Shown piece by piece: positions 28,185 to 62,341 of a stretch of 64,000 bases of DNA. Source of the DNA: a virus; the IMG/VR virus record IMGVR_UViG_3300047091_000002, positions 55,488 to 119,487 of that record; one strand, 5' to 3'. Position numbers and translations under genes: made by a program. Under the pieces are notes generated by a model. It saw only the letters and a program-made list of their open reading frames with translations, had not been told where the DNA came from and ran no database searches. Positions within the stretch are counted from its first letter, which is position 1, and the number at the start of each line of letters is the position of its first letter.

Positions 28185-28190
28185 TATGAT

Positions 28191-28219
28191 ATTATAACAT
28201 AATTAAATTAATTTGTCAA
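28191..28219 (-). promoter_or_regulatory. Perfect sigma70-type promoter of the leftward block
   Basis: Minus strand TTGACA (28219-28214), 17-base spacer, TATAAT (28196-28191), with extended TTGACAAAT. The start of transcription falls on the GTG of the first gene. Confidence 0.85.
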
Positions 28220-29449
28220 GTATTAAAGTGCAATATTTAAAACTTTTGAAAAGTATAGAAAATATATTAGGAAAATATCGAAATGTGTGAAGTGCCTAAT
28301 CTTATCTAATTCTAAATTTCTATCTAAACTTAACAAAATCCAACATTTAGAAAGATTAAAATCGATAAGCATTTATTTAGAGAGACAGTGAAGACTTTTG
28401 ATAAACCTTTCTCGCCACAATACCCTTAATATTTATATATATTTTATATAAGATTAGAGCAATTTATATACCAGGTTGATGTGGCTAGTGAGAACTTTCT
28501 CTTTCAGAGAAAGAGCGTTTTTGTTCCTTTGTTTTCTATACCTTAATCAATACTGACTGGTAGGTAGGTAGAACTACCGTTTGGTAGGTGATTATATATG
28601 TTGATATATATAGAGTTATAAAGCGTTTAGTAGATGATACATAGGTGTGGGAATAAGGTATATATAGTTCTATTATGAAACATAAGAGAATAAATATAAT
28701 AGAATGAATATGTTAGATAAAGCCTAACATATATTTATCTACTACATTTGTAGTTAGTTGCACAATAATGCAGCACTACTCTGCGATGAGAGGGTGTCAT
28801 TTATGTTGAGGTTTTTGATGTTTTTCTAAAAATAGATGTGCAGGAGTATAATGATAAAATCGGGTGCTTAGAAAGATATATAAATATCATAAGTATATGA
28901 TAATAAATAAGATAATGAATAAATAAATATAATAAGATAGACTAGATGCATTGAGAAGTAGACAGAGTATTAGAGTATCATATCTCTATAGCTATATACT
29001 ACTATCTATCTAAGTATAAGAAAATAAAGAAGTAAGTATAATAAAAGAAAATAGATATAAATATCGTAAATATAAGAAAAGAATAGAGATAATAGAAATA
29101 GAGTGAATGTAGACAGTACATATCCTTATCTATTCGGTATATTATATGGTACTAACTAGGAAAGTATATCTATATAGTTTGGTATATGGTTCATGCTGTA
29201 TCTTGTGGCGTGTATAGGGCTATGTAATTGTTATACATCCTTATCTGCTTACTATCTTGTAGAGTGTGCATTGTGATGTGTAAGGCAGTATGATTATACT
29301 GCTATACTCTCTATAGCATGTGCAGTGCATAGATGTTGTTATCTATAGGGTATATCCGTATATGCTATGGTGGGCCAGTGTGTTGTAGCCCTTATATGTC
29401 CTATATAGAGGAATAGTTCTATTGAGCTTGTGTTGTATACGTTTTTATA
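28220..29449. other. AT-rich gene-free divergent region
   Basis: About 1.2 kb without a credible reading frame, dominated by A/T runs and short TATATA or ATAGATA tracts, between the leftward and rightward gene blocks. It holds a hairpin with a T-run at 28495-28522 and a small palindrome near 28709 (ATGTTAG...CCTAACAT). A replication origin or regulatory region is possible, but no iteron array was recognised. Confidence 0.5.
28495..28522 (+). terminator. Hairpin plus T-run in the divergent region
   Basis: CTTTCTCT (28495-28502) pairs with AGAGAAAG (28506-28513), then AGCGTTTTTG. A three-base loop makes it tight. If it is a terminator, a short rightward transcript must start upstream; I found only a weak promoter (TTGATA near 28398). 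Confidence 0.45.
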
Positions 29450-29479
29450 TTGACATTCCCTTATACTCTATGTTATACC
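29450..29479 (+). promoter_or_regulatory. Promoter for the small membrane protein
   Basis: TTGACA at 29450-29455, then TATACC at 29474-29479 preceded by TGT, an extended -10 with an 18-base spacer. It drives the gene at 29518. Confidence 0.55.
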
Positions 29480-29517
29480 CTTTATTCGGTTCTAAATTTT
29501 AGGTTGGAGGGTAGGAA

Positions 29518-29655
29518 ATGAACAATCAGTGTGCAGCAGTTATTCTAGTTTTAGTAGCAATCGTCGTTGTGTGGGGCGATATTCTTATTCATAACAGCAA
29601 GGTGGTAAGGGTGGCAGGTAAGGGTAGCGCAGGCAGTAAGTATAGCAAAAGATAG
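29518..29655 (+). CDS. Small single-span membrane protein, 45 aa
   Basis: A strong Shine-Dalgarno (TTGGAGGGTAGG) precedes the ATG. The first 20 residues (MNNQCAAVILVLVAIVVVWG) are one membrane span and the rest is basic and Gly/Ser-rich. The unit has its own promoter and terminator (29688-29716), so it is probably well expressed. Could be an early host-envelope effector; not recognised. Confidence 0.65.
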   Translation: MNNQCAAVILVLVAIVVVWGDILIHNSKVVRVAGKGSAGSKYSKR

Positions 29656-29687
29656 TTGTAGGTCAATAAATTCTCATCGAATGTATA

Positions 29688-29716
29688 GGCTAGGCTATCG
29701 CAGTCTAGCCTTTTTT
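29688..29716 (+). terminator. Terminator T1 (GGCTAG family)
   Basis: GGCTAGGCT and AGTCTAGCC pair (9 bp with one G-U) around ATCGC, followed by TTTTTT. First of six related terminators between here and 34108. Confidence 0.75.
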
Positions 29717-30310
29717 GTGTCTACTCGACTATTTTAGCTGCGTTAGCTTAAACTGCGTTAGCATCTTTAGTTTGTAAGCCTGTAATTAGTAATGTCTAAT
29801 CTATTAGTATTACAGTATCATCGTTCCTGTAATTCCCTTTTCAGTAAGTCTATATCTCTTGTGTCACACTATATAAGATTTATTTATTTAGTGTATAAGG
29901 TTTATATAGAAAACCGGGGATTTATCGCATTATCGGACTCAAGTTAAGTTGTTCATTCTAAAGGTAGTTAGGGGAAGTGCAAAAAAGGGTATACCGCAGT
30001 ACCCTCTACATCTGGGCTTTGATGAGTCTACTATATTAGTTTCTATCAGTTACAAGGGTTTCAACAGGAAAAGGGCAAGTTGTGGAAAACTCGTTACAGG
30101 GCATCCTAGAGCGTTTTTTCTGGCATTATAGTTGCTTCGCGTGTGCGCGTTCTATTCTACTCTATTTCGAGATAATAAGATGTAATTTGTAAAACAGGAT
30201 ATATCTCTTACAAAGTAGTTTGTAAGTATCTATCAAGAGTACAGAGGTTACTTCAAGTTCCTTGAGCAAGTGCTATGCCAATTATTTTTATATATTCCTT
30301 TATTTTTTGC
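29717..30310. other. Intergenic region without a supported gene
   Basis: A 60-codon frame starting with TTG at 29949 has no Shine-Dalgarno and no recognisable sequence; I do not accept it. A partly palindromic stretch (GTAAT...ATTAC near 29783-29814) may be structured. Otherwise I see nothing. Confidence 0.4.
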
Positions 30311-30338
30311 TTGACATTAGTTTGAATCTGTAGATAAT
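30311..30338 (+). promoter_or_regulatory. Promoter upstream of leader RNA
   Basis: TTGACA at 30311-30316 and GATAAT at 30333-30338 with 16-base spacing. Transcription would start near 30345. Confidence 0.65.
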
Positions 30339-30344
30339 AGGGGC

Positions 30345-30610
30345 TGTCGCAGGAAAGCGGCAAAATCGAGCAAGGCGCGGGGAGCGCAAGGATTTGAATA
30401 AACCAAGTGGCTTGCGCGATTAACTCGAAAGGGTGAAAGGCAAGTTTAGAATAAAGGTTTGTAACTTGCGAAGTTGTTTACTGGCTAGACTTTGATTCGC
30501 TTAGATGTTCGATTCTAACCGATGAAATCCGCAAGTAAAAGATAGATAAAATGCAACCAGTATCTACAGTATTTAATAAAAGAAAAGGCTAGGCGCAAGT
30601 CTAGCCTTTT
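30345..30610 (+). ncRNA. Structured leader RNA or independent ncRNA, about 265 nt
   Basis: No reading frame is seen between the promoter and a 10-bp terminator hairpin (30583-30610). The RNA is richer in G and C than its flanks and has visible helices: GTCGC/GCGGC with a six-base loop at the 5' end and GCAAGTT (30440-30446) with AACTTGC (30463-30469). The terminator ends ten bases before the next gene, so the element could be a riboswitch-like attenuator of that operon, or a free-standing RNA. It does not match tmRNA or RNase P by eye. Confidence 0.55.
30583..30610 (+). terminator. Terminator T2 (GGCTAG family)
   Basis: AAAAGGCTAG pairs perfectly with CTAGCCTTTT around GCGCAAGT. It ends the leader RNA immediately before the 63-residue gene. 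Confidence 0.75.
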
Positions 30611-30619
30611 GGGGTTGTT

Positions 30620-31967: not shown

Positions 31968-32975
31968 ATGAACCCTATGACTAATGAAGTGAACAACTTA
32001 ACAGATGCAAGCGCATCTGAGGTAACTAACAATGCAACAGAACAGAAGAAAACTCCTAAACCAGCGAAGCAAGTAACCCAATCTCAACCTAGCCTGATGG
32101 AACGGGCTATCGGATATTGCAGGCAGCTTGATAAAGAAATCAAGAGAGAGGGGAAGGCTGGCGCAGGGATTAGCCGCGATGCGGCGATTGCAGAGACTCA
32201 AGAGAGTATGCGGTTGATGTTTGCAATTACCGTGCTAGGTACTTTCGCGACTGTCGCAAAGCTTTTCAGGCAATATCACACTAGACTCAAATCAGAGGTA
32301 GAAAACTTTGATGAAGGTCTATTCTGGAAGGATGATAAGATTGCTCAAGAGATAATCAACCGGGCATCAAGCTCGATTGATACTGAGCTTAACGGTACGC
32401 CTAAATTGACTAAAGAGGGCACTGTTAAATACAAGCGTGATAAGGTAGTGTCACGCCTAGCTAACATAGTTGCCCCCTTGATTCAATTAGGAATTAGGTC
32501 AGAGGATATTATGCTACGTCTAATGCTCAAGATGAAATTGGACTCTAGCGCCGATTTCGCAAAAGCATTAGATACGGTAGTTAGAGGGTGTGAATTGTTT
32601 CGTCCGGTTTACTCAGCCGTGCGGTATCTCAAATATGCGGGTCTAATTGTTGCAAAGAAGGAAGATAAACAGCAAGAATTTGACTTGTACAGAGTGATTG
32701 CGAATCGGGCTGACATTGATGGATTGACAAGTCAAGGGGCTGCAAATGCGCTTAATGATGTAGTCAATACCGCGTATCAGTTTTTTACAAAAGAGCCGTC
32801 GAAGATACTTACTCCTGAGCAAGTTGCGTTCGTAGTGGAACAAGTAAATGCTCATAACGCAGGAGTTAGAGCGAGAATTCAGAAGGGAGAGAAGAAAGCG
32901 GACATCCCTAGCCTGTTGTGGGAAAATGTCAAGCTGGCAAAGTCTAACGCCGCGAGCGCTGGCACAAATGCGTAA
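31968..32975 (+). CDS. Hypothetical protein, 335 aa
   Basis: ATG at 31968, or 31977, which has better spacing from AAGGA. A Thr/Ala/Lys-rich tail-like N-terminus (about 45 residues) is followed by mostly helical sequence with conserved-looking QESMRLMFAITVLGTF and CELFRPVYSAVRYLKYAG. It has its own terminator on each side. Not recognised; perhaps an abundant early protein. Confidence 0.6.
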   Translation: MNPMTNEVNNLTDASASEVTNNATEQKKTPKPAKQVTQSQPSLMERAIGYCRQLDKEIKREGKAGAGISRDAAIAETQESMRLMFAITVLGTFATVAKLFRQYHTRLKSEVENFDEGLFWKDDKIAQEIINRASSSIDTELNGTPKLTKEGTVKYKRDKVVSRLANIVAPLIQLGIRSEDIMLRLMLKMKLDSSADFAKALDTVVRGCELFRPVYSAVRYLKYAGLIVAKKEDKQQEFDLYRVIANRADIDGLTSQGAANALNDVVNTAYQFFTKEPSKILTPEQVAFVVEQVNAHNAGVRARIQKGEKKADIPSLLWENVKLAKSNAASAGTNA

Positions 32976-33010
32976 GTAATCAAGGGTAAATCACTACAAG
33001 TAGACCGTTT

Positions 33011-33042
33011 AAGGTTAGGTACTGAGAAGTATCTAGCCTTTT
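33011..33042 (+). terminator. Terminator T4 (GGTTAG family)
   Basis: AAGGTTAGGTAC pairs with GTATCTAGCCTT (12 bp with G-U pairs) around TGAGAA, followed by TTTTG. Confidence 0.7.
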
Positions 33043-33220
33043 GCGGTTGAATAGTTTGATTGAATGCTCCCGTTTAGGCGATACTTTGCAACAACTAAGC
33101 AACAAGTCTAAGTTGAATTCTAGCTATAGGTTACGAATAAGTTAACTAGATAGCAGATTCTAAAATGATTAGTTTGTGTGCGGGTATCGCCTATTACTAA
33201 ATTAGTGAAGGAGGAAGAGT

Positions 33221-33367
33221 ATGCCTGAGAACTTTGAAAGCAGTTTAGTATCTGAATTTACTCAAAACTGGATTGACGATCTACAGGCTAAGATTAAAGC
33301 AAAAGGACTCAATCCAAATATGGTTAGGTACGTATGCGAAGATTGCGACCAGAATTCTTACGCATAA
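33221..33367 (+). CDS. Small protein with Cys pair, 48 aa
   Basis: GGAGGAAGAG precedes ATG 33221. The product is acidic and ends YVCEDCDQNSYA; one CxxC could bind zinc as a dimer. The motif ACTAAATTAGT lies at 33196-33206, just before the Shine-Dalgarno. Confidence 0.6.
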   Translation: MPENFESSLVSEFTQNWIDDLQAKIKAKGLNPNMVRYVCEDCDQNSYA

Positions 33368-33425
33368 GGGGGGTAAGCTATGAAACCAAGCTGCGGGGTT
33401 TTAATTTCTGACTAACAGAATAAAA

Positions 33426-33451
33426 TGTAGAGGGTAACAGTACCCTCTACA
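33426..33451 (-). terminator. Terminator of the leftward nuclease gene
   Basis: TGTAGAGGGTA and TACCCTCTACA form a perfect 11-bp stem around a four-base loop, overlapping the stop at 33447. In the leftward direction TTTTATT follows. Confidence 0.75.
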
Positions 33452-33866
33452 TAACATCAAAATTTGAAGGTATATACATAATTTCGTTTTTATTATCGGG
33501 AAAGACTAACGCCAAAACATCGTATTTAGTTGTATTTACTGGCTTTGCATAGGTTATCTTTCCCTTATGAGATATTCTTGCGGTTTTAATTTCTATTCTA
33601 TAGAGTTGGTCATTTTTTTGCGCTATGATGTCAGCAGAACAAGACGGGGAAACAGCCCTAAAAACCTCGAACCCTCTATGAAGTAGATCAGCGCACACTA
33701 TTAACTCGGACGCAGCCCCCGTACTAGCTGGCGTACTGGCAGATATTGTAAGCGGTTTAGGAAGCGCGTAACTTAGAGATTTACACTTTTTAGTACAAAA
33801 AAGTTGTCGGTATTTATATACAGATTTGTATTGCTTACCGCAATTTTTACAAGATTTGTAAAACAT
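33447..33866 (-). CDS. PD-(D/E)XK endonuclease with zinc finger
   Basis: The 139-residue protein begins with a zinc-binding motif (Cys6, Cys9, Cys24, Cys28) and continues with TGAASELIVCADLLHRGFEV, then SADIIA (Asp79) and IEIKTA (Glu92, Lys94). This glutamate, D, ExK order is the PD-(D/E)XK nuclease core as in group I-intron-associated and Holliday-resolvase-like enzymes. It is transcribed against its neighbours from its own promoter (start at the ATG, so leaderless) to its own terminator. A mobile (homing-type) nuclease is likely. Confidence 0.75.
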   Translation of the reverse strand: MFYKSCKNCGKQYKSVYKYRQLFCTKKCKSLSYALPKPLTISASTPASTGAASELIVCADLLHRGFEVFRAVSPSCSADIIAQKNDQLYRIEIKTARISHKGKITYAKPVNTTKYDVLALVFPDNKNEIMYIPSNFDVM

Positions 33867-33872
33867 TTTAAT

Positions 33873-33901
33873 ATTTTATCACAGTTACAGCGATTTGTCA
33901 A
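33873..33901 (-). promoter_or_regulatory. Promoter of the leftward nuclease gene
   Basis: Minus strand TTGACA (33901-33896), 17-base spacer, TAAAAT (33878-33873), with extended TTGACAAAT. The predicted transcript starts at the ATG (33866). Confidence 0.75.
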
Positions 33902-33918
33902 ATACGTTTGGGACATCT

Positions 33919-33950
33919 AGGCAAGGTATCTAATACGGTATCTTGCCTTT
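33919..33950 (+). terminator. Terminator T5 (GGCAAG family)
   Basis: GGCAAGGTATC pairs with GGTATCTTGCC around TAATAC, followed by TTT. It resembles T6 and its flank (GCTAGGTT) is also repeated. Confidence 0.65.
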
Positions 33951-34077
33951 AAGCATTGCTAGGTTTGTTTGTAGGTTAGTTACTAATGAAAGTGAGGTAT
34001 CTATATGCTGCCCTAGATAATCTGCGGTTGCGAGATTAAAAAGGCATACAAACAAAGAATACAATTTTAACGCAATT

Positions 34078-34108
34078 GGCAAGGTGGATTTATTCTATCT
34101 TGCCTTTT
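34078..34108 (+). terminator. Terminator T6 (GGCAAG family)
   Basis: GGCAAGGTGGA pairs with TCTATCTTGCC and is followed by TTTTG. It directly precedes the giant structured RNA region. The 125 bases between T5 and T6 hold no credible gene. Confidence 0.65.
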
Positions 34109-34109
34109 G

Positions 34110-35832
34110 CTGTCGCTAGGTTCGATTTTAAGAGGTTTTTACTTCTAGAATGAATCTTTCCTAGTCTAAGGCGCAACGATTCGTTAAAAACGATTCTAGC
34201 GCATTTATTAACATACTCTATGCCTATAGATATTTTCTAGGGTATAGGGTTTAACCGATTCTGCAATATCGGAAAAATTGCAATGCTAAACACTCTTTAT
34301 CGAAGTGGCGGAAAGCACGTTAGCGGGACGCTGACCCTTATTCGCAAGCATTATAAGTAAATCGGTTATGTCAGAGTAACGAGTCAGATCAATGACGTTC
34401 AACACAATTGACTGTGATATTTGACTTGCTGATTAATCCATTAGCGACGTATAGGGCAAGGGCTGATTACGTTAAGCTATAAAGTTTTGTTATTGACCGG
34501 AGATGACCGAGGCCACATTGTAAAATGAGGGTACACGCTACCTCCCAACGCAGTGACGAAGGAAAACTGCGTTCAAGATGCGACGAAAGCACCTTGTCTC
34601 AATAACAAATCAGGCAATACCCGTGAAGTGGTGGAGTAGTCGGTTCTAGGTTGGAAGTAGAAGGAAACTTCTATATAATATCTAGTGACGCTGGCAAAGA
34701 GTGGCAGAGGGAAATTAAATATAAATTTTCTTTATAGGGGCTGCCCTTCCTAGCTATAGGGTTTAACCCGTCGTAAGTAGTATAAAAAACGACAAGATAC
34801 AGCCGTCACTTTAGGTTCCTAGAACATAGACAAAATTACATAGACAGGATTTCGTGAATGCTATGGCTACTCACGAAACTAGGGACTTTTATTCCTAGTA
34901 GTACGAGATTGACGACCGGGGCGTGTCTCATTTAGCAATCGGTATGTTTATTATAGAGAATTGCATATTGAGCGTGTGAACGTGTGTGTCGTCAACCGAA
35001 CGGCTACCTTATGTGATAGTTAAAAAAGCCTAGTCAGATAGTCCAATAGATGTAAAACTGCGTAATCACGGAGTACCGACTGGTACTCTAGCTGGCAAAA
35101 CCTTAGTGAGATATGTAATTGAGCATATCAAAACTCTTTGTACCTAGTTTCGTGGTCGTTGCGCGTTCTTTTTTGTAGCATCATGCGAGGATAAAAAAGA
35201 ACAAGTTTAAGAAACCTACGCAGTTTTACTAAATTAGTCAATCGTGAAATCTTCGTGATTCCAGATAACATGCTGGGCGAGATTACTCGTTGCTATAACT
35301 CATAGTGTGACGAGACTCGATAAATGATTGACTAATTTAGTCACATCGAGCGATAATAGAGTATATAACTCTGGAGCTTGGACCTAATCACTGACGATAA
35401 ACTCTATGATTAGCGGGTAGAACGCGAATGCCCGAATAGCCGATAGCTGCGGATCAATTGTAATGGATAGTCATCAAGGATTTTCCACCTCTTAAACTCC
35501 TGGATTCTCCGTATACATCCCCATATGACTATCTGTTTCAGTTGATCCATATGCGACGAAGGCTTAATTTGCGCGTCGTTTCTTGATTCATCTAAAAGAA
35601 ACGTTACAACCAGATGACAACCTACCTTAGATTATTCTCTATTAACCTCAAAGTTCCCTGTAATGCAGTCTCAAAGTTCCTTAGCGATTTGAAAAGACAT
35701 TTCGGATAGATTTATTCTATCGGAATTAACGATAAACGATTACAGTGATTTGAGTACAATTCAGATAACTATATTAGTTATTGGAGCTAACGACAAGTTA
35801 ATATGGTAATTTAAGGTAGGTTGAAAGATAAT
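34110..35832 (+). ncRNA. Giant structured non-coding RNA region
   Basis: About 1.7 kb without any credible reading frame contains many perfect complementary pairs in one orientation: 34486-34496 with 34599-34609 (11 bp), 34547-34554 with 34566-34573 (8), 34684-34690 with 34804-34810 (7), 34850-34857 with 34871-34878 (8), 34909-34916 with 34988-34995 (8), 35054-35064 with 35217-35227 (11), 35165-35174 with 35193-35202 (10), 35228-35243 with 35326-35341 (16), 35466-35474 with 35525-35533 (9), and 35619-35629 with 35812-35822 (11). Helices abut and nest like a folded RNA, and the last closes just before a tRNA. Large ornate RNAs beside phage tRNAs (GOLLD, ROOL) are known; membership is unproven. 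A boxA-like CACTCTTTA lies at 34290-34298. Strand is inferred from the tRNA. The ends are approximate. Confidence 0.8.
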
Positions 35833-35834
35833 TT

Positions 35835-35907
35835 GGGGCTATGGACAAGTGGTTAAGTCGTTTCCCTTTCAAGGAAAAGATCGAGGGTTCAAATCCCTCT
35901 AGCCCTA
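35835..35907 (+). tRNA. tRNA-Glu (UUC)
   Basis: The full cloverleaf is present: acceptor GGGGCTA/TAGCCCT, D stem GAC/GTC, anticodon stem TTTCC/GGAAA with loop CTTTCAA (anticodon TTC), and T arm GAGGG-TTCAAAT-CCCTC. Discriminator A, no encoded CCA. It begins twelve bases after the last helix of the giant RNA and is probably cut from the same transcript. Confidence 0.95.
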
Positions 35908-35956
35908 CATAATATCGAAAATAGATTTTTAGAAAAACAATAGAAAGGCATCACCA

Positions 35957-36106
35957 ATGATTTCAACAGTACAGGAATTAATTGATCAATTGAAAAAATT
36001 TGATCCGTTGGCAAAACCGATGATCTACAATCCCAACATGGAATGCGATGAGGAAATACACGCCATAACAGCATTTCCCCAAGAGAATGTTGTTATTTTA
36101 GATTAA
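35957..36106 (+). CDS. Small acidic protein, 49 aa
   Basis: MISTVQELIDQLKKFDPLAK, a common kind of short phage protein. AAAGG lies upstream. Its stop overlaps the next ATG (TAATG). It opens the block behind the tRNA, which is somewhat richer in G and C than what follows. Confidence 0.6.
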   Translation: MISTVQELIDQLKKFDPLAKPMIYNPNMECDEEIHAITAFPQENVVILD

Positions 36107-60733: not shown

Positions 60734-61046
60734 AAAAGCAAAGATATTTATTCACCCTACTAAGTATATAGGCGATGTGCCAATTGAGATTCTGGCAGAT
60801 TGCACTCGTTATTTAGCAGTGCATAAGAGTATAGATAATGATAAAAAATGGGTAGTTACCCATATTCCTACTGGATTAGGAATATATAATGATTTTAAAT
60901 GCAAGAAGAAAGCGCTTGCTGCTATGGAATATCTATTAAAATATGATTGGAATTTTACTACTACGGAAATTCATAAAGATCTTCCTAAACTTCATTATAA
61001 ACAACTTTGCCAAGGTTATCTTTATGTAAAGAAAAACTTTATTTAG
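60699..61046 (+). CDS. Hypothetical protein, 115 aa
   Basis: MIDNDNGKHIYKKAKIFIHP, alpha/beta and basic. Overlaps the SPOUT gene by 35 bases and lies just before the RNA ligase. Not recognised. Confidence 0.55.
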   Translation: MIDNDNGKHIYKKAKIFIHPTKYIGDVPIEILADCTRYLAVHKSIDNDKKWVVTHIPTGLGIYNDFKCKKKALAAMEYLLKYDWNFTTTEIHKDLPKLHYKQLCQGYLYVKKNFI

Positions 61047-61054
61047 GATATAAT

Positions 61055-62341
61055 ATGTCATATACTGCGATAATTACTAAATTACAAAATGTAAGATCTC
61101 ATTCAAATGCAGATCGCCTAAAACTAGGAAATGCTCAAGGAAATCAAGTAGTAGTTGGATTAAATTCGATGGAGGGAGCTTTAGGAATATATTTTCCTAC
61201 GGATGGGCAACTTTCGGAACAATACGCATCCGCAAATGATTTAATTGGTTATGTTGATCCAGAAACTAAAGAACGCAAGGGCGGATTTTTTGCGAAGAAT
61301 CGTCGGGTGAGAACTCAAAAATTTCGAGGAGAGAAATCAGATGGTTATTTTGCCCCGTTAGAAAGTTTAGCATTTACCGGGATAAATCTTTCCTCTCTTA
61401 AAGATGGTATATCTTTTACAGAATTAAATTCTATTCCAATTTGTAATAAATACGTTACACCTGCTACCGCAAGAATGCTGGTTAATAAAAATCCTCGTAA
61501 ACAAAATCAATTCTTTAATAAGCATATTGATACTGAACAATTTAAACACCGGGGCTTTTATATTCCAAGAGGGGCATTATTATCTTTTACATGTAAACAG
61601 CACGGCACTTCAGGGCGATTTGGATATGTGCTAGATGAAAAAACCGTTCCAAATCCATTGTGGAAACGATTCTTACTACCTCTTAGTAAGCCAAAAACTG
61701 CATTAGAATTCGATTATTTGCACGGTTCAAGAAATGTCATTTTTAATAAATGGGTTGAAGATAGTTACTACGGGGACGAAGGATTTAGATGGAAGGCAAT
61801 AGAACATCTACGGGGACTCTTACATAAAGGAGAAATTCTTTACTATGAACTTGTAGGATTTACTAATACTGGTACACCGATAATGCCGGAAGTTAGTACG
61901 AAGATTTTAAAAGATAAATCAATTGAAAGTCGTTATGGTTCCGTGATGCGATATAAATACGGATGTAATGCAGAGGATACATCGAATCAAACTCGTTTAT
62001 TCGTATATCGTATCACACGAGTATCTAACGATGGAAATGTAATTGATTTATCTTGGGATCAGGTAAAAGCAAGATGCAGAGGATTGGGGGTAACCCACGT
62101 ACCGGAACTTCACGAATCTTTCGTTTATTCAGGTAATTTCGATGAACTATCTAGTCTTGTAGACACTCTTTCCGAGGGTGACGATGTTATTGATCCTTCT
62201 CATATTAGAGAAGGTGTAGTTATTCGTATTGATTTTAATGGTGAACCCTACTTCCTGAAACATAAATCCTTTAGCTTCAAGGTATTAGAAGGACTGGTTA
62301 AAGAAACGGATTCCTATGTAGATATAGAAGAAATTTCATAA
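61055..62341 (+). CDS. RNA ligase (DRB0094/Rnl5-like)
   Basis: From ATG 61055 (TTTAGGATATAAT upstream) the 428-residue protein has an N-terminal OB-like domain (SYTAIITKLQNVRSHSNADR) and nucleotidyltransferase motifs in order: I KQHG (Lys181), III YLHGSRN (221-227), IIIa YYELVG (263-268), IV EGVVIRI (386-392), V LKHKS (401-405). An N-terminal OB domain before motif I is the DRB0094 layout. It would join RNA ends using ATP via a lysyl-AMP. Neighbouring SPOUT gene and RNA loci suggest RNA repair. Confidence 0.85.
   Translation: MSYTAIITKLQNVRSHSNADRLKLGNAQGNQVVVGLNSMEGALGIYFPTDGQLSEQYASANDLIGYVDPETKERKGGFFAKNRRVRTQKFRGEKSDGYFAPLESLAFTGINLSSLKDGISFTELNSIPICNKYVTPATARMLVNKNPRKQNQFFNKHIDTEQFKHRGFYIPRGALLSFTCKQHGTSGRFGYVLDEKTVPNPLWKRFLLPLSKPKTALEFDYLHGSRNVIFNKWVEDSYYGDEGFRWKAIEHLRGLLHKGEILYYELVGFTNTGTPIMPEVSTKILKDKSIESRYGSVMRYKYGCNAEDTSNQTRLFVYRITRVSNDGNVIDLSWDQVKARCRGLGVTHVPELHESFVYSGNFDELSSLVDTLSEGDDVIDPSHIREGVVIRIDFNGEPYFLKHKSFSFKVLEGLVKETDSYVDIEEIS

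Follow-up and report, generated by a model that had tools for sequence, protein, structure and literature searches.

Genomic setting of the ORF-free stretch

The DNA analysed was a window of 64,000 nucleotides, corresponding to positions 55488-119487 of an IMG/VR virus record of 119,487 bp, and coordinates are those of the window unless a locus is named. The longest ORF-free stretch of the record (ORFs of at least 60 amino acids, both strands) lies at 33867-35888 (2,022 bp). Directly upstream is a PD-(D/E)XK endonuclease gene (PDDEXK_5, 33447-33866, minus strand), and at the far end is the only tRNA of the window, a tRNA-Glu (UUC) at 35835-35908 on the plus strand (ARAGORN; 72 bits with the Rfam tRNA model). 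An RNA ligase gene (PHROG 968) is located at 61007-62341 on the plus strand. The second-longest ORF-free stretch, 28185-29948, is AT-rich, contains a switch in the sign of the GC skew and is weakly structured (folding z-scores of -2.6 and -1.4 for two pieces).

The record is classed as that of a tailed phage from PHROG matches to a terminase large subunit and to a major capsid protein. Protein comparisons mark this phage as divergent from known phages: the terminase had no tblastn match at 1e-5 among 50,697 phage records, the DNA polymerase showed ~21-25% identity, and the capsid protein reached at most ~25% identity among the matches listed. A family A DNA polymerase at L002:10296-12230 (plus strand) has an odd motif A, DFANSQLR, where its relatives have DYSQIELR.

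Within 34110-35834, no ORF of at least 50 amino acids was present on either strand, and the largest ORF was 47 amino acids (shuffle mean, 76). No plus-strand ORF of at least 30 amino acids followed a Shine-Dalgarno-like site in the region; of 14 equally long control stretches, 12 contained 1 to 14 such ORFs each. The statement in the first-pass annotation that the region holds no credible gene was borne out by the 47-amino-acid maximum and by the lack of a Shine-Dalgarno-preceded ORF on the plus strand; the region is a long non-coding stretch, as is expected of a giant structured phage ncRNA.

A weak sigma-70-like promoter candidate (TTTACA-17-TAATAT, 9 of 12 matches) was found on the plus strand at 33846-33874, from which a transcript could start near 33881; promoter-like sites were no commoner in the region than in shuffles. 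Between 34105 and 36800 there was no plus-strand terminator-like site, and transcription should therefore run through tRNA-Glu. The hairpin at 34078-34108 looks like the other terminators of the locus, and it may divide the region between two transcripts.

Between 29688 and 34108 lie five terminator-like hairpins similar to one another (CTAGCC or CTTGCC, then a T-run); on the plus strand of the genome, such hairpins were found in this 4.4-kb part only. A candidate small RNA on the plus strand (30330-30615, z -4.7) has a promoter-like TTGACA...TAGATAATA just before 30340 and a terminator-like hairpin at 30588-30612. A structured intergenic stretch on the same strand (33005-33215, z -4.2), with long-range pairing of GGCGATAC and GTATCGCC, may be the leader of a small ORF at 33222.

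Folding, domains and strand

The minimum free energy of 34110-35834, the minimal extent of the proposed giant structured ncRNA on the plus strand, was -521.4 kcal/mol; 12 shuffles averaged -428.6 kcal/mol (sd 15.4), which gives z -6.0. In the same test, z-scores of -2.8 and -0.5 were obtained for two coding control stretches. Exact Watson-Crick helices of at least 10 bp with a span of at most 700 were in excess at 33880-35834 (8 observed; mean 1.25 and largest count 5 in 20 dinucleotide shuffles), the longest being 16 bp, against at most 12 bp in shuffles. Ungapped complementary segments scoring at least 12 numbered 5, against a shuffle mean of 0.33. The region folds well beyond chance, the second property expected of a giant structured phage ncRNA. 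Sliding windows of 250 nt were mostly unremarkable, because the structure is long-range.

On the plus strand, the central multi-branched domain (34618-35419; z -6.56, 20 shuffles) is closed by 34618-34637/35401-35419, a pairing of segments ~790 nt apart with a probability of ~0.8. All long complementary pairs listed in the first-pass annotation were located in the sequence, including two within this domain: 35228-35243/35326-35341 is a perfect 16-bp helix, and 35054-35064/35217-35227, also without mismatch, forms part of a 13-bp helix (35052-35064/35217-35229). A long stem-loop follows at 35451-35548 (35451-35474/35525-35548, 23 pairs including 3 G.U; mean pairing probability, 0.97). The 3' multi-branched domain (35618-35823, 206 nt) is closed by a 19-bp stem, 35618-35636/35805-35823, and has a z-score of -6.90, with 0 of 200 shuffles folding equally well. 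Its end is 11 nt upstream of tRNA-Glu; that the last stem closes just before the tRNA had been noted earlier and is confirmed, with the distance corrected from 12 to 11 bases. A 14-mer, TATAGGGTTTAACC (near-palindromic GGUUUAACC), has two exact copies in the window, at 34243-34256 and 34755-34768 on the plus strand, both within the giant RNA; that the repeated near-palindrome is a contact site is speculative.

A duplicated module was found at the 5' end on the plus strand. Copy A (33919-34071) comprises a 12-bp hairpin (33919-33948) and a candidate 10-bp stem (33964-33973/34047-34056), and copy B (34078-34212) comprises an 11-bp hairpin (34078-34104), which is terminator-like (CCTTTT), and a candidate stem (34114-34131/34184-34201). 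The copies align along their length, with a score of 60 compared with a largest score of 57 among 500 shuffles, and both open with a hairpin of the form GGCAAGGU.../...CUUGCC, the three inner pairs of which change from copy to copy with pairing preserved (A-U, U-G and C-G in copy A; G-U, G-C and A-U in copy B). In the second candidate stem, two positions differ on both sides between A and B (U-A becomes C-G, and G-C becomes U-A); the stem of copy B has two mismatches. Forcing this stem costs 1.6 and 3.5 kcal/mol relative to the free fold; as it lies above the minimum-energy fold, it is treated as hypothetical. By its compensatory changes, drawn from two internal paralogues, the tandem module supports a structured RNA. 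The structure, which had been placed from 34110 onward, probably begins further upstream, near 33905-33919; it is also possible that copy A is a separate small RNA and not part of the giant RNA. Alignment of a putative third copy at 33012-33190 was not significant.

The minus strand of 34110-35834 folds almost equally well (z -5.9), so energy alone cannot decide the strand, and mismatches were therefore counted in strand-neutral inverted repeats, which were picked by Watson-Crick pairing only and hence blind to strand. A G.T on the plus strand is a wobble in plus-strand RNA, while the same site in minus-strand RNA is a C.A mismatch. In this small sample, G.T (G.U) mismatches numbered 8 and A.C mismatches 1. 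The excess of G.U over A.C points to a plus-strand RNA, in the same direction as the tRNA.

Comparison with known RNA families and search for homologues

Searched with Rfam 15 at gathering scores, the whole window gave the tRNA as its sole match, and at E <=10 with permissive filters, 33400-36000 gave nothing credible besides the tRNA. No Rfam family of group I or group II introns matched. The covariance models of ROOL (RF03087, 574 positions) and GOLLD (RF02032, 416 positions) had no match anywhere in the record. As a control, both were run against 49 other records, mostly from large phages whose RNA ligase is related to the one here, in which the ROOL model matched 5 records (337-394 bits) and the GOLLD model 1 (128 bits, E 3e-36, below the curated cut-off of 150); their absence here therefore carries meaning. 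Membership in GOLLD or ROOL, one option of the first-pass annotation, is not supported, since both models miss the region and match other large phages. Its observation that the known giants lie near tRNAs holds in these records: a same-strand tRNA starts 0-40 nt past ROOL in four of the five loci, and the GOLLD copy has an internal tRNA. In one large-phage record that carries both ROOL and tRNAs, a tmRNA gene is predicted as well (L208:519-818, minus strand).

The RNA at 34110-35834 is likewise phage-encoded and close to a tRNA; it shares its setting with ROOL and GOLLD and differs from both in sequence and in model matches. Like ROOL, it is ORF-free and highly structured with a same-strand tRNA just downstream, but it is ~3 times longer and lacks a ROOL model match. 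Like GOLLD, it is a giant multi-domain RNA of a phage that is near or holds tRNAs, but it is ~2 times as long and lacks a GOLLD model match; GOLLD molecules are often >800 nt. Folded by the same method and on the right strand, three ROOL copies and one GOLLD conserved region gave z-scores of -2.4 to -4.6 (those of L205 and L208, which were antisense, were left out), compared with -4.9 to -9.7 for the domains of 34110-35834, which folds at least as well as genuine ROOL and GOLLD copies.

Recent work showed that ROOL, as a homo-octamer, and GOLLD, as a 14-mer, build nanocages made of RNA alone, the function of which is unknown (PMC12286853). A further phage RNA, the ~800-nt ncRNA of ICP1, comes from an ORF-free stretch of ~1 kb and is the most abundant phage transcript of ICP1 (PMC7567579). 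It resembles the present RNA in its origin from an ORF-free phage stretch and in falling outside known RNA families, but it is shorter, ICP1 has no tRNAs, and blastn of the present RNA region against phage records matched tRNA genes only.

Homologues were sought with the RNA and with proteins of the phage. Blastn of the RNA region returned tRNA genes only from phage records, nothing from plasmids, and short chance-like matches only over 50 large-phage records. The pattern CTAG-N0-3-TATAGGGTTTAACC was absent from viral contigs, and a 19-mer of the RNA was absent from genome contigs. For two domains, covariance models built from the single sequence (one run against 77 other records) matched the window itself only, with other scores at or below 10.6 bits. 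Scans of viral contigs with single proteins (the ORF at 31968-32975, terminase and DNA polymerase) gave no relatives, and the capsid protein had only 2 weak matches in genome contigs, both in Acidobacteria MAGs. With a helicase alignment, the best identity was 44% among the matches listed. Three contigs found with a polymerase DNA motif were not kin. An RNA ligase alignment gave 80 loci at up to 52% identity, for which kinship was rejected (no terminase match and hardly any other shared gene), and a terminase fragment picked up 23 loci whose identity across the protein did not exceed ~30%. As no homologue was found, the claim of a new class rests on one sequence.

A proposed giant tRNA-linked RNA and its alternatives

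The probability that a structured plus-strand ncRNA exists here was put at about 0.85. The earlier reading of a very large structured ncRNA abutting tRNA-Glu stands on the folding, the lack of ORFs, the wobble asymmetry and the duplicated module; its GOLLD/ROOL membership is not supported. The best fit is probably a new class, known from one sequence; it would be a further class of an already known kind, the giant structured phage ncRNAs linked to tRNAs. The annotation had also offered a fusion of several such RNAs; the modelled folding pattern and the duplicated 5' module suggest several domains, no piece of which matches a known RNA. That the region yields a single 1.7-1.9 kb molecule, produced jointly with tRNA-Glu, is somewhat better than an even bet.

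An array of separate structured RNAs, with a small one ending at the hairpin 34078-34108 and one or more larger ones following, is doubtful but to be taken seriously: that hairpin is terminator-like and has four similar counterparts within 29.7-34.1 kb, the 5' part is duplicated in tandem, and further structured stretches lie nearby (30330-30615 and 33005-33215), but no plus-strand terminator-like site is present from 34110 onward and the pairing that closes the central domain across ~790 nt has a probability of ~0.8. A GOLLD or ROOL member diverged beyond recognition by the Rfam models would share the setting (a phage, a large ORF-free structured stretch and an adjacent tRNA), and GOLLD, which lies near or holds tRNAs, has a variable 5' region (PMC12286853); it is improbable given a length ~2 times that of GOLLD and no match at E <=10 with models that find 1 GOLLD and 5 ROOL elsewhere. 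An element acting as DNA, such as an origin or a packaging site, would account for the nearly equal z-score of the minus strand, and inverted repeats can have DNA roles, but the 8:1 ratio of G.T over A.C in strand-neutral repeats, the nested, multi-branched and long-range layout across 1.7 kb, the adjacent tRNA and the position of the AT-rich GC-skew switch elsewhere, near 28 kb, make it very improbable. Decayed protein genes, or the remnant of a mobile intron that the PDDEXK_5 gene directly upstream left behind, are scarcely credible, as helices of 16 and 19 bp with z-scores near -7 are not products of decay, no Rfam intron family matched, and blastn gave no similarity to phages or plasmids.

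For the preferred reading of a single giant RNA, we infer the course from transcription to function as follows. The stretch 34110-35834, probably from near 33905, would be transcribed as one plus-strand ncRNA of ~1.7-1.9 kb with a plan of duplicated 5' module, 800-nt central multi-branched domain, long stem-loop and 206-nt 3' domain, and would be co-transcribed with tRNA-Glu. RNase P cleaves 5' of tRNAs, and a cut at 35834/35835 would both free the mature tRNA and create the 3' end of the giant RNA. The product would then work as an RNA in the way of ROOL and GOLLD: a multi-domain scaffold, abundant during infection and perhaps homo-oligomeric; a role as mRNA or cis-regulator appears less likely. 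Because ROOL and GOLLD form RNA-only cages, an oligomeric, RNA-only scaffold is, by analogy, the leading guess for function. The full combination, a new tRNA-linked class of ~1.7-1.9 kb and ~2 times the length of GOLLD, forming an RNA-only multimer and cut by RNase P out of a transcript shared with tRNA-Glu, is tentative and unlikely to hold in every part.

If real, this RNA would be among the largest structured ncRNAs described from a phage. It would be a third tRNA-linked giant, unrelated to the other two and much larger, and would point to repeated acquisition of such RNAs by phages; it would also provide an independent case for testing what giant RNAs do and whether the position 5' of a tRNA (release by RNase P, a link to translation) matters.
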